Under the pieces are notes generated by a model that worked only from the letters and a program-made list of their open reading frames with translations, ran no database searches and was not told the DNA's origin. A program made the position numbers and the translations under genes. DNA of 64,000 nucleotides, taken from contig JAEURR010000003.1 in the NCBI GenBank assembly GCA_016788115.1, positions 62,001-126,000 of the forward strand, in the 5' to 3' direction. This DNA comes from Chthonomonas sp. (GTDB lineage: Bacteria; Armatimonadota; Fimbriimonadia; Fimbriimonadales; Fimbriimonadaceae). Each line of letters begins with the position of its first letter. Position 1 is the stretch's first letter. Below, in pieces: positions 7,809 through 15,700 of this stretch.

Positions 7809-9236
7809 ATGTTTCGAATCAATACCAACGTCCAGGCCATGAACGCGCTTCGCAACCTTGCGAACACCAGCGCAAGCGCTAACAATACGATGACTCGGTT
7901 GTCTAGCGGTCTCCGAATCAACTCGGCTGCGGACGATCCTGCGGGACTCCAGATCTCTGAAGGACTCCGCGCACAGCTTGGGGGTATCGACCAGGCACTT
8001 CGCAATAACCAGGATGCCGTTAACTTCGCAAAGACTGCCGAAGGCGCCCTTGCTGAGGTGAACCAGCTCCTGAACGACGCTCGCGCTCTTGCCGTTGCAA
8101 ACTCGAACGACGCAACGCTCTCGACCAGCCAGAAGCAGGCAAACCAGAACCAGCTGAACTCGATTCTCAGCTCGATTGATCGAATTTCGACCAATACGCA
8201 GTACGGATCGAAGAAGTTGCTGAACGGTAGTGCAGGCATCACCGCCAACGTCGTCAACGCCGCTCGACTCCAGTCGGTGCAGATCGGCGGTACTTTTGGC
8301 TCGGCCCAGACTTCGGTCACCGCGAACGACACACTGAACGTGAACGTTGCAACAGCCGCAGTCAAGGCGACCGTCACAGGTGGTGCTGCAGTGGCCGCGA
8401 ACGCTGTGGGTGCAGACGGTAACTTGGCGATCAACGGCATTAACTTCAAGGTCAATGCCTCCATGACGAACCAGCAGTTGGTGGATGCGGTCAATTCCCG
8501 CTCGGAAGACACTGGAGTTCAGGTCGCCATCACCGGCGGTAACATGGTCTTCACTGCGACCAACTACGGAACGGGAAGTAACTCGATCCAGATCACGAAC
8601 GACACTGCCGGTCTCGGCTTTGCCGCCGTAGGCACTCGCACCCTCGGTTCGGGTACTGCAGGCGTCAATGCCGTCGCGACGTTCACATTGGCCACCGCCG
8701 GTACCACCACGGGTGCACTGACGGCAAGCACGGCGGACGGCAAGACGTTCAACGACGCTTCGGGCAACGTGTTCAAACTGACCGATGTTGGCGCGACCAC
8801 GACCGGTGCTCTCACGAGCATCGCCTCGATCGCCGCCGGTTCGGCTCAGTTCCAGATCGGTGCAAACCAGGGTCAGACCGCTTCGCTCTCGCTGGCAAAC
8901 ACGTCGGCGGCAACGCTCGGCGTCTCTGGCCTGGACATCACGACGGTCTCCGGTGCTTCGACGGCTCTGACCTCGATCGATAGCGCCATCACTTCGGTCG
9001 GTAGCAGCCGAGGTTCGATCGGTAACTTCGTTCGTAACGTGCTTGAGTCGAACACCCGTTCGCTCAGCATCGCGAAGGAAAACCTGTCGGCAGCTGACAG
9101 CGCTGTTCGAGACGCTGACGTGGCTGAGGAAATGACGAAGTTCACGAAGCTGCAGATCATGCAGCAGAGTGGTCTTTCGATGCTGGCACAGGCGAACTCG
9201 GCTTCCCAGTCGGTTCTCGCCTTGCTCCGCGGCTAA
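7809..9236 (+). CDS. fliC: Flagellin
   Basis: 475 residues, the filament subunit exported by the flagellar type III system. The N-terminal D0/D1 domain (FRINTNVQAMNALRNL, RLSSGLRINSAADDPAGL) and the C-terminal one (ending QANSASQSVLALLRG) are canonical. The variable centre (about 150-390) is Ala/Thr/Gly-rich; residues about 215-265 (NLAINGINFKV...NSIQI) resemble the flagellin hook IN motif. GGAGG is placed 11 bases before the ATG. No other filament or hook gene is adjacent; flgM lies 6 kb away. Transcription is probably strong and separate, as terminators lie on both sides. Confidence 0.95.
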   Translation: MFRINTNVQAMNALRNLANTSASANNTMTRLSSGLRINSAADDPAGLQISEGLRAQLGGIDQALRNNQDAVNFAKTAEGALAEVNQLLNDARALAVANSNDATLSTSQKQANQNQLNSILSSIDRISTNTQYGSKKLLNGSAGITANVVNAARLQSVQIGGTFGSAQTSVTANDTLNVNVATAAVKATVTGGAAVAANAVGADGNLAINGINFKVNASMTNQQLVDAVNSRSEDTGVQVAITGGNMVFTATNYGTGSNSIQITNDTAGLGFAAVGTRTLGSGTAGVNAVATFTLATAGTTTGALTASTADGKTFNDASGNVFKLTDVGATTTGALTSIASIAAGSAQFQIGANQGQTASLSLANTSAATLGVSGLDITTVSGASTALTSIDSAITSVGSSRGSIGNFVRNVLESNTRSLSIAKENLSAADSAVRDADVAEEMTKFTKLQIMQQSGLSMLAQANSASQSVLALLRG

Positions 9237-13583: not shown

Positions 13584-15122
13584 ATGAAACGCTCCCTTGT
13601 TTGGCTCATGGCGGCCCTGTCCTGTGTGGCTTTGGGCAAGGACTTCACCGTGACTTTCCTGCACGTGAACGACACCCACGGACGCCTCGAATCGACCACC
13701 ATCAAAGGCGAAACCTACGGTGGATTTGCCCGGCAAATGACGGCCATCAACCAAGTCCGCAAGAAGGAGAAGAACGTGCTCCTCTTCCACTCCGGGGATG
13801 TCTTCCAGGGGACCCTCTACTTCCGGCAATACACCGGCCTTGCCGACCTTGCCTACCTCAATGCCGCGCGGTACGACGCGATGACCCTCGGCAATCACGA
13901 GTTTGACCTCGGCCCCGGCGCGATCACCGAGTTCGCCGAGCGCGCCACGTTCCCCATCGTCGTTTCAAACCTCGACCTCAGCGAAGAGCCGCGCCTGGCA
14001 GCCAAAGTCAAGGCGTACACCGTGCTCGAAGTCAACGGCACCAAGATCGGAGTGGTCGGAGCCATCACCCCCGACACCACAAACATCAGCAGCCCCGGCC
14101 CAACCGTGAAGATGAAGCCACTGGTCGAGAGCGTCCAAGCCGGAATCGATGCGCTCACGGCGCAGAAGATCGATAAGATTGTTCTGCTCTCGCACCTGGG
14201 GTACCAAGAAGATCTCGCCCTTGCGCCGAAGCTCCGCGGCATCGACGTCATCCTTGGAGGGCACAGCCACACTCTTCTCGGCTCGACCGAATCGCCGCTT
14301 GGGAAGCCACTGGGTCCCTACCCGACCGAGGCGAAAGACTCGGCAGGGACGCGGGTGATCGTCGCCCAAGCCAATGAGTGGGGCAAGGTCCTGGGCAACC
14401 TCAAAATTACGTTCGATGGCGCAGGGCACGTCAAGAGTTGCTCCACAGATTCGCAGATCGTGCTCGACAAGAGCGTCCCCGAAGACCTCGCGATCAAGTC
14501 GATGATTGACGCCTTTTCTGCGCCGATCCTCGTCATGCGTAAGAACGTACTCGGCGAAACCAAGACGACCATCGCGCGCGCGGGGACACCCGATGCTCCC
14601 GAGTCACTCATGGGGAATCTCATCGCCGACTCGATGGTCGAGACGACCCGGCGAGCAGGTGCACAGATCGGTCTCATGAACTCTGGTGGTATCCGCGCCA
14701 ACTTCGAAGCGGGCAAGATCACCGTCGAATCCGTCCTCATCGTCCAGCCGTTTGGCAACACTCTCTTTCTCGTCGACATCTCCGGCGCGGAGTTGAAGCA
14801 GTGCTTGGAAATCGCGCTCGAGCGGGGCGGCTACGTCCACGTCTCCAGCGACCTTAAGTACCGATTCGATCCCAAACGGGCGGTGGGCGATCGGGTCACC
14901 AAGCTCTTGTACCAGGGCAAGCCTCTCGCTCCCGACGCCATCCTCCGAGCGGTAACGAACAACTTCATGGCCCGCGGCGGCGACTTCATGGATCCGCTCA
15001 AGAACGCCAATCGCTATCGGCTCGATACCGGCATCGTCGACGCAGATGCCCTCATGGATTACGTGAAGGGTAAGAGCCCGTTCGACCTGAAACCGGAGGG
15101 CCGCATCACCGTAGGGTCGTGA
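13584..15122 (+). CDS. Exported 5'-nucleotidase / 2',3'-cyclic phosphodiesterase family protein
   Basis: 512 residues. Signal peptide MKRSLVWLMAALSCVALG, then a metallophosphatase domain with HVNDTHGR, HSGDVFQGT, GNHEFD, LLSHLGYQ and GGHSHT, and a C-terminal nucleotide-binding domain (NSGGIRANFEAG, QPFGNTLF, VTNNFMARGGD). This is the UshA/YfkN arrangement, releasing phosphate from extracellular nucleotides in the periplasm. Start ATG 13584 follows GAGGAC. Divergent from sdhA across 79 bases. A long hairpin at 15168-15211 follows the stop. Confidence 0.92.
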   Translation: MKRSLVWLMAALSCVALGKDFTVTFLHVNDTHGRLESTTIKGETYGGFARQMTAINQVRKKEKNVLLFHSGDVFQGTLYFRQYTGLADLAYLNAARYDAMTLGNHEFDLGPGAITEFAERATFPIVVSNLDLSEEPRLAAKVKAYTVLEVNGTKIGVVGAITPDTTNISSPGPTVKMKPLVESVQAGIDALTAQKIDKIVLLSHLGYQEDLALAPKLRGIDVILGGHSHTLLGSTESPLGKPLGPYPTEAKDSAGTRVIVAQANEWGKVLGNLKITFDGAGHVKSCSTDSQIVLDKSVPEDLAIKSMIDAFSAPILVMRKNVLGETKTTIARAGTPDAPESLMGNLIADSMVETTRRAGAQIGLMNSGGIRANFEAGKITVESVLIVQPFGNTLFLVDISGAELKQCLEIALERGGYVHVSSDLKYRFDPKRAVGDRVTKLLYQGKPLAPDAILRAVTNNFMARGGDFMDPLKNANRYRLDTGIVDADALMDYVKGKSPFDLKPEGRITVGS

Positions 15123-15167: not shown

Positions 15168-15211
15168 CCCAGAAAGAATTTTCGATATTTCCCCTAAAGA
15201 TTTTTTCTGGG
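15168..15211 (+). terminator. Long hairpin after the 5'-nucleotidase gene, possible terminator
   Basis: CCCAGAAAGAATTTT (15168-15182) pairs with AAGATTTTTTCTGGG (15197-15211), 13 of 15 positions Watson-Crick and two G-U, around a 14-base loop. Its 3' arm carries six T within the stem. It lies 45 bases after the stop and 45 bases before the riboswitch aptamer, and may terminate or attenuate. Confidence 0.45.
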
Positions 15212-15225
15212 CTACCGATACAAAA

Positions 15226-15371
15226 ATTGGGTCAATAGGACCCACCGACAGAAAAAGGCACTCTTGGGGGCGACCCCTTGAACGCAAAGCCTAGGATCTC
15301 AAAGCTGGAATCCAGCGAGAGACAGCCGGGATGCCTGTCTGAACAAGCGTGCGGACCAAACGGAGGACCCA
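15226..15371 (+). promoter_or_regulatory. c-di-GMP-I (GEMM-I) type riboswitch leader of flgM
   Basis: The core at 15256-15336 has: P1 AGGCA (15256-15260) with TGCCT (15332-15336); a GNRA hairpin GGGG-GCGA-CCCC (15266-15277); the conserved ACGCAAAGCC (15282-15291); a stem TCTC/GAGA (15297-15300, 15317-15320) topped by GCTGG/CCAGC; and ACAGCCGGGATGCC at the 3' end. These are GEMM-I landmarks. The usual AAACC at the 5' side of the GNRA stem is absent, so ligand (c-di-GMP, cGAMP or other) is uncertain. ATTGGGTC (15226-15233) is perfectly complementary to GACCCAAT (15366-15373) over the flgM start, and alternatively pairs locally with GACCC (15239-15243): a candidate expression platform. Confidence 0.7.
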
Positions 15372-15638
15372 ATGCAAATTTCAGACACCGAACTTAAGAA
15401 AGTACTCGCCATGGGTGGATTCGCTCTCATTGAGAGCGAGGAAGGCTTCGAGCCCTCCCCCCGTGCCGGCGACGAGCCGCTGATCAAGCAGCTCACACAA
15501 GAGATCATGGTCATGCCCGACCGCGAGGACCGGGTGGTGGAGCTCAAGGCCCGCATCGACGCGGGTGCGTACCAAGTCTCAGGCGAAGAGATTGCCGACG
15601 CAATCGTCCGCCGAGCCATCGCCGATCGAGTCAAATAA
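15372..15638 (+). CDS. flgM: Anti-sigma-28 factor FlgM
   Basis: 88 residues. The C-terminal half (DREDRVVELKARIDAG, then YQVSGEEIADAIVRRAIAD) matches the FlgM family, which holds sigma-28 (FliA) inactive until it is exported through the finished hook-basal body. The N-terminal half is acidic and low-complexity, as expected for a partly unfolded export substrate. GGAGG (15362-15366) precedes the ATG, and the start is overlapped by the leader's possible anti-start pairing. No fliA is in view. The gene stands alone, ended by a terminator at 15665. Confidence 0.82.
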   Translation: MQISDTELKKVLAMGGFALIESEEGFEPSPRAGDEPLIKQLTQEIMVMPDREDRVVELKARIDAGAYQVSGEEIADAIVRRAIADRVK

Positions 15639-15664
15639 GACGCGAACCGAAAGGTCCGCCCACG

Positions 15665-15700
15665 ACGCCCTTTGCCCACCGGTAAAGGGCGTTTGTGTTT
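15665..15700 (+). terminator. Terminator between flgM and rnhC
   Basis: ACGCCCTTT (15665-15673) pairs perfectly with AAAGGGCGT (15684-15692), followed by TTGTGTTT. It ends plus-strand transcription from flgM and abuts the 3' end of the convergent rnhC gene. Confidence 0.8.

Follow-up and report, generated by a model that had tools for sequence, protein, structure and literature searches.

A c-di-GMP-I aptamer on the flgM leader of Armatimonadota, a candidate translational ON switch for an anti-sigma-28 factor

Known routes by which cyclic di-GMP curbs motility include master regulators, motor brakes and riboswitches on early operons. Of the riboswitches described so far, those close to the RNA reported here include Vc2 and Vc1 of Vibrio cholerae; in Vc2 the stability of P1 is tied to ligand binding and Vc1 is an ON switch (PMC4744006, PMC9262584), with the mechanism of both stated as unknown (PMC4744006). 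A further GEMM-I aptamer, Cd1 of Clostridioides difficile, is found upstream of the flgB operon (PMC5386303). At the level of the sigma factor, c-di-GMP strengthens the actinobacterial anti-sigma RsiG against WhiG, a factor of the sigma-28 family, within the RsiG-(c-di-GMP)-WhiG complex (PMC8325347), and in Escherichia coli the small RNAs OmrA and OmrB pair with the early coding sequence of flgM, which blocks ribosome loading and sets sigma-28 activity (PMC7549644). Finally, the merRNA of Bdellovibrio is a c-di-GMP riboswitch RNA within a lifestyle programme run by FliA, it has no conserved downstream gene and has been proposed to act as a store of c-di-GMP (PMC3627812).

The RNA considered here precedes flgM in a 64,000-nucleotide stretch of DNA from Chthonomonas sp. 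(assembly GCA_016788115.1, contig JAEURR010000003.1), the whole of which is referred to below as the window. It shares with Vc1 and Vc2 the fold, the contacts G20, A47 and C92 and the interhelical pair, and it differs from them in its flgM target, in a loop that in this order is mostly GCGA or GUGA without the usual receptor, in a rebuilt P1b and in a putative platform placed on codons 3-6. As with Cd1, c-di-GMP would lower flagellar gene expression via a GEMM-I RNA, and the C. difficile flgM is itself dependent on sigma-D (PMC5386303); however, Cd1 is a transcriptional OFF switch on an early flagellar operon with a sigma-A promoter, whereas the element here lies on an anti-sigma gene and is probably translational and ON. 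In the case of RsiG it is the protein that binds the messenger, here it would be the mRNA of an unrelated anti-sigma, and the part played in trans by OmrA and OmrB with Hfq would fall to a strand of a cis aptamer. Unlike merRNA the element is linked to one conserved gene.

The aptamer itself is thus of a kind already known, and it is the flgM target, the circuit and the coding-region platform that appear to be new, in that they were not found in open-licence papers. None of the open-licence literature puts a c-di-GMP riboswitch on flgM, lists of GEMM-associated genes may mention one earlier, and none of it joins a c-di-GMP riboswitch to the Armatimonadota. Where papers in that literature deal with both a riboswitch and flgM, their subject is another organism or the flgB operon of C. 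difficile.

The flgM-linked aptamer and its distribution

An earlier note, made from the sequence alone, had proposed a GEMM-I riboswitch on the flgM leader, and a covariance model, phylum-wide conservation and covariation all uphold that proposal. The RF01051 match in the Rfam scan of the window is full length and scores 35.0 bits, exactly the gathering score of 35, and with an E of 3.4e-5 it is the sole match in a genome of 2.4 Mb; scores in relatives reach 86 bits. The landmarks that had been listed, a GNRA loop, ACGCAAAGCC, ACAGCCGGG and a closing P1 helix, are present (Table 1). A chance match at the cut-off was considered and ruled out by conservation on flgM in relatives: a FlgM ORF begins 13-87 nt after the aptamer in 73 of the 92 RF01051 copies examined, and a family covariance model, built from 42 family members, adds the element on flgM in six genomes which the Rfam scan had missed (G001, G008, G022, G055 and G056 in the family, G064 in the order).

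Table 1. Features of the flgM locus, in positions of the window
Feature	Position	Strand	Basis or remark
Sigma-28-type promoter	15195-15221	+	TAAAG 15195-15199, spacer 14, ACCGATAC 15214-15221; consensus match
5' leader hairpin UGGGUC/GACCCA	15228-15244	+	predicted minimum-energy fold
c-di-GMP-I (GEMM-I, RF01051) aptamer	15247-15338	+	Rfam scan, full length 1-87
P1 closing helix, 4 bp	15247-15250 with 15336-15339	+	GACA with UGUC
Ligand contacts G20, A47, C92; C93	15257, 15286, 15334; 15335	+	alignment
Stem adjoining ligand site	15258-15285	+	alignment, pair counts, compensatory dinucleotides
Pairs of this stem	G15258-C15285, C15259-G15284, U15262-A15281, C15263-G15280	+	
Stem pairing GGGG with CCCC	15266-15269 with 15274-15277	+	
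GNRA loop GCGA	15270-15273	+	
GEMM-I landmark ACGCAAAGCC	15282-15291	+	
Interhelical pair C44-G83	15283-15325	+	columns invariant in 42 sequences
GEMM-I landmark ACAGCCGGG	15322-15330	+	
Switching strand UGUCUGAA	15336-15343	+	directly after C92-C93; P1 3' strand or partner of flgM codons 3-6
Shine-Dalgarno GGAGG	15362-15366	+	read from sequence; 6-10 nt before ATG
flgM, anti-sigma-28 factor, 88 aa	15372-15638	+	PF04316, E 5.6e-11, 42.9 bits vs cut-off 25
UUCAGACA, flgM codons 3-6	15380-15387	+	partner of 15336-15343 in the inferred OFF form; 8-bp helix, covarying
Intrinsic-terminator-like hairpin 3' of flgM	15664-15693	+	13 pairs, weak T tail

The fold was assessed in an alignment of the 42 family members that was built by sequence, without fitting to structure. 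Within the three-stem fold 11 of 19 pairs vary on both sides, which none of 500 shuffles matched, and cells with both-sided changes number 64 compared with 17 in shuffles; RNAalifold run on a plain alignment recovered the aptamer in part only. P1 varies little: among 23 distinct sequences 96.7% of its cells are paired, and in each of the three groups of relatives its own strands pair better with each other than with swapped partners. The columns of C44-G83 are invariant and therefore that pair gives no covariation signal.

The gene that follows, 34 nt after the aptamer ends, was named flgM in the earlier note and the Pfam match agrees with this; the product is 56% identical to a FlgM from a Fimbriimonadaceae genome (phylum Armatimonadota), and the family of the window's genome is accordingly taken to be the Fimbriimonadaceae. 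Upstream of flgM a 5'-nucleotidase gene ends at 15122 and downstream, on the opposite strand, is a ribonuclease HII gene. The hairpin 3' of flgM may end the transcript and so flgM looks to be monocistronic. A transcriptional platform was rejected, as no terminator-like site was found on the + strand in the stretch that separates aptamer and flgM. Small hairpins like that predicted at the 5' end of the leader were seen by eye in the leaders of several relatives.

Across the relatives, RF01051 is found in 77 of 101 genomes, usually as one copy each. FlgM is encoded by 57 of the 61 family genomes and the element lies on flgM in 52 of these 57, the five that keep FlgM without the aptamer (G005, G034, G051, G030 and G048) belonging to two genera. 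In genus g4 (G005:C42, G034:C1 and G051:C180; loci L116-L118) flgM has been kept with both the sigma-28-like promoter and the riboswitch lost, no leader is left and a TATAAT stands directly before the start codon, which suggests a nearly leaderless mRNA made from a housekeeping promoter. G030 and G048, the other family exceptions, are small genomes. The complete genome G045 has no FlgM, element, GGDEF or flagellin, in gene content a coherent joint loss of all four.

Outside the window's order, where the link was compared by position, RF01051 lies at most 400 nt upstream of flgM in 18 of the 35 FlgM-bearing genomes sampled, spread over 9 families. On this distribution the link between aptamer and flgM looks ancestral to the Armatimonadota, which are mostly soil and water bacteria. 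Other c-di-GMP-I copies are often present outside the order, within it the flgM copy is nearly the sole one. Tandem c-di-GMP-I aptamers upstream of genes other than flgM were observed in other families of the phylum, in G099 (C116:12661-12861 and C93:57369-57570; loci L083 and L084) and also in G107, G120 and G136.

Candidate promoter and expression platforms

The aptamer is closely preceded by a sigma-28-type promoter, from which we would place the start of transcription near 15226-15229. Tested against a consensus of TAAAG, a 14-16 nt spacer and GCCGATAA, the window promoter fits 11 of 13 positions, and the same fit or better is seen at 40 of 73 FlgM-linked loci where about 0.45 would be expected from shuffles, with the end of the -10 element mostly 17-36 nt before the aptamer. 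The exact pattern TAAAGN(13-16)CCGATA has a single match in the window (0.01 expected) and a single match in the genome, in which a reversed control pattern also has 1. The position of the promoter makes it probable that sigma-28 transcribes flgM and so drives its own brake. FliA is encoded elsewhere in the genome (G000:C5, 230.5 bits against a cut-off of 189.6), which is of ~2.4 Mb in 9 contigs and has five GGDEF genes. A flagellin gene (7809-9236, PF00669) is only 6 kb from flgM, yet the 280-nt region upstream of it contains no sigma-28 consensus, so that the flgM leaders by themselves carry the sigma-28 assignment.

Outside the window the same genome encodes a protein in which sigma-70 regions 2-4 are fused to a C-terminal GGDEF-like domain (G000:C3:197046-198173; L093:1402-2715). 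The sigma part is FliA/WhiG-like at 133 bits, below the family cut-off, the GGDEF-like motif looks degenerate (CRFGPLGFAVI), and the gene is found just downstream of one resembling type IV pilus assembly genes, named from its sequence only. In related genomes there are GGDEF matches in ORFs of similar length, and a sigma factor that carries its own c-di-GMP-type domain would merit a closer look.

The strand that follows C92-C93 has two possible partners, the 5' strand of P1 and flgM codons 3-6, and the second of these pairings closes a loop within which the Shine-Dalgarno lies. The predicted minimum-energy fold of the window leader is this closed form with the alternative helix (z -3.1). Across 23 distinct sequences of this type, 95.7% of the alternative helix is paired, compared with 90.9% when shuffled (0/500) and 20-47% when slid, and it has 10 cells with both-sided changes compared with 2.4 in shuffles (0/500). 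When the P1 3' strand is set against its own or swapped codons the z is -6.2, with control regions at 0.3 and -1.3, kinship being ignored here as in all of the swap and shuffle statistics; one control in another group gave -2.8 and therefore values near -3 mean little.

Within the alternative helix the third base of the Ser codon is particularly informative. It is paired in 23 of 23 sequences (UA 16, CG 6, GU 1) where 16.9 would be expected (0/5000 permutations), again in 5 of 5 held-out genomes that were found later by the family model, and in 33 of 33 genomes. On the FlgM protein tree the type of this pair has changed about 5 times (bootstrap 4-5), at least two of the changes being forced by well-supported branches and some falling within genera g1 and g19. 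The window codons ATT and TCA are rare ones, with ATT accounting for 15.7% of Ile and TCA for 3.8% of Ser in ten window genes. As the choices at codons 3-6 are synonymous, they are most simply explained by selection on the RNA.

The other lineages would close the start site differently. For the sister families the partner of the P1 3' strand is the Shine-Dalgarno (for example CUGUCUCC with GGAGGCAG; z -4.9 relative to swapped partners, kinship ignored), a pairing that was also tried for the window's group and rejected there as no better than swapped. A third group mostly starts with GTG, and in it the 5' leader together with the P1 5' strand is paired to the Shine-Dalgarno and start (z -4.3); in 14 of 15 cases this leader helix shares 2-9 nt with P1. 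P1 and the start-closing helix are mutually exclusive in all three designs, and therefore a P1 stabilised by ligand should open the start. Partition-function estimates of start-site opening, comparing a constrained P1 strand with a free one, came out positive for the sister families (of 71, 20 exceed +0.2 and 3 lie under -0.2) and neutral for the window, since the measure covered the Shine-Dalgarno only.

The sequences show the aptamer, its target, their conservation and a covarying alternative helix, and from these patterns we infer the use of sigma-28, the identity of the ligand, the direction of the switch and its effect on motility, and we consider a translational ON riboswitch for c-di-GMP on the flgM mRNA to be a likely reading. 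Sigma-28 (FliA) would transcribe flgM from the promoter just upstream of the aptamer. Without ligand, UGUCUGAA would pair with flgM codons 3-6 and close a hairpin holding both the Shine-Dalgarno and the AUG, so that little FlgM is made; c-di-GMP, bound between G20 and C92, would stabilise P1, which takes the first four nucleotides of the switching strand, and the start site would then open and FlgM be made. FlgM would bind sigma-28 and the late flagellar genes fall, with c-di-GMP setting the strength of sigma-28's own negative feedback. That pairing at such a position can block the ribosome is indicated by the action of OmrA/B on the early flgM coding sequence of E. coli (PMC7549644). The 4 bp of P1 compared with the 8 bp of the alternative helix in the window make it less certain that c-di-GMP could tip the balance.

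The opposite direction would follow if ligand-bound P1 stacked on, or favoured, a pairing between the 5' leader and the start, closing the start site. In the window AUUGGGUC (15226-15233) is a perfect 8-bp complement of GACCCAAU (15366-15373), which covers the AU of the start codon, and such a helix would enclose the aptamer without disturbing P1; a pairing of leader and start region is indeed seen in the third group. This complementarity, striking as it is near the inferred transcript start, was rejected, as in the window's group it is not conserved and pairs no better than swapped (z +1.3). Furthermore, the 5' strand is occupied by the local leader hairpin in the predicted fold, the overlap in the third group means that P1 opposes the leader helix there, and with an OFF switch sigma-28 would be more active when c-di-GMP is high, the reverse of how this messenger usually works. 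We therefore think an OFF switch unlikely.

Ligand class

RNAs of the GEMM-Ib type (Hypr/cGAMP) are marked by an A in place of G20, a position at which the window has G. The contacts G20, A47 and C92 are those listed for c-di-GMP-I (PMC4744006), and in the alignment of flgM aptamers A47 is invariant and G20 and C92 are each kept in all sequences but one, G20 being G in 72 of 73. The exceptions are G057 (locus L015), with A instead of G20, and G031 (locus L065), with U instead of C92; altered selectivity or an assembly error may lie behind either.

The earlier note had remarked that the AAACC of the class was missing, and saw in this a raised chance of a divergent ligand. As to letters the remark was right, the sequence being GGCACUC and not GGCAAACC, so that the segment after GGCA is without AACC; as to structure it was not, since these positions form a cross-stem dinucleotide pair, UC/GA in the window and GA/UC, GG/CC or CC/GG in relatives, which is compensatory in 40 of 47. 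The second change is that in the window's order the GAAA loop and its CUAA/UAUG receptor have mostly been swapped for GCGA or GUGA loops without that receptor, a simple motif search finding the full receptor in 0 of 47 family flgM aptamers and in 2 of 4 outgroup flgM aptamers with GAAA loops. The usual GNRA receptor is common, not universal, so that its absence leaves class membership standing. These two lineage-wide changes, the rebuilt P1b and the lost receptor, account for the low RF01051 score, and as both lie away from the ligand contacts they give no sequence reason for another ligand. With G20, A47, C92 and C44-G83 kept, and the supposedly missing segment a compensated stem change across the family, the suggestion of a divergent ligand finds no support. 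By the tests run the window RNA belongs to the c-di-GMP-I class, and binding of c-di-GMP is predicted.

Recognition of another cyclic dinucleotide, either 3',3'-cGAMP as in GEMM-Ib or c-di-AMP, has precedent in that cGAMP is bound by some Geobacter GEMM-I RNAs (PMC6456294) and that G20 is a selectivity factor and no hard filter (PMC9262584), and the low Rfam score does show divergence; with that divergence confined to P1b and the receptor, and G20 so widely kept, we regard it as very unlikely. Still less can be said for a remnant or constitutive leader that has kept the aptamer fold and lost switching, which the score at the cut-off, the short P1 and the two genera without the element might suggest, as aptamer and alternative helix covary, the contacts are invariant and one copy per genome has been kept on one gene across the family.

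A possible anti-sigma checkpoint under c-di-GMP

All findings agree with the other part of the earlier proposal, namely an action of c-di-GMP on the anti-sigma-28 factor, and the platform would add a direction to it, FlgM ON. On balance we lean towards an ancient, phylum-wide circuit in which c-di-GMP switches on the translation of FlgM from an mRNA made by sigma-28, and in which the aptamer and the ON logic stayed constant while the pairing of the OFF state was rebuilt at least three times (with codons 3-6; Shine-Dalgarno with 3' P1; Shine-Dalgarno with 5' P1). As the platform has been exchanged between related families, these genomes provide a natural series for the evolution of riboswitch output on a constant aptamer, and within them synonymous flgM codons appear to be held by RNA pairing.

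If the ON reading is true, c-di-GMP acts via RNA on the anti-sigma checkpoint itself, and the messenger would set the gain of a compact feedback loop. Taken with RsiG-WhiG there would then be two unrelated routes by which c-di-GMP arms an anti-sigma against a factor of the sigma-28 family.
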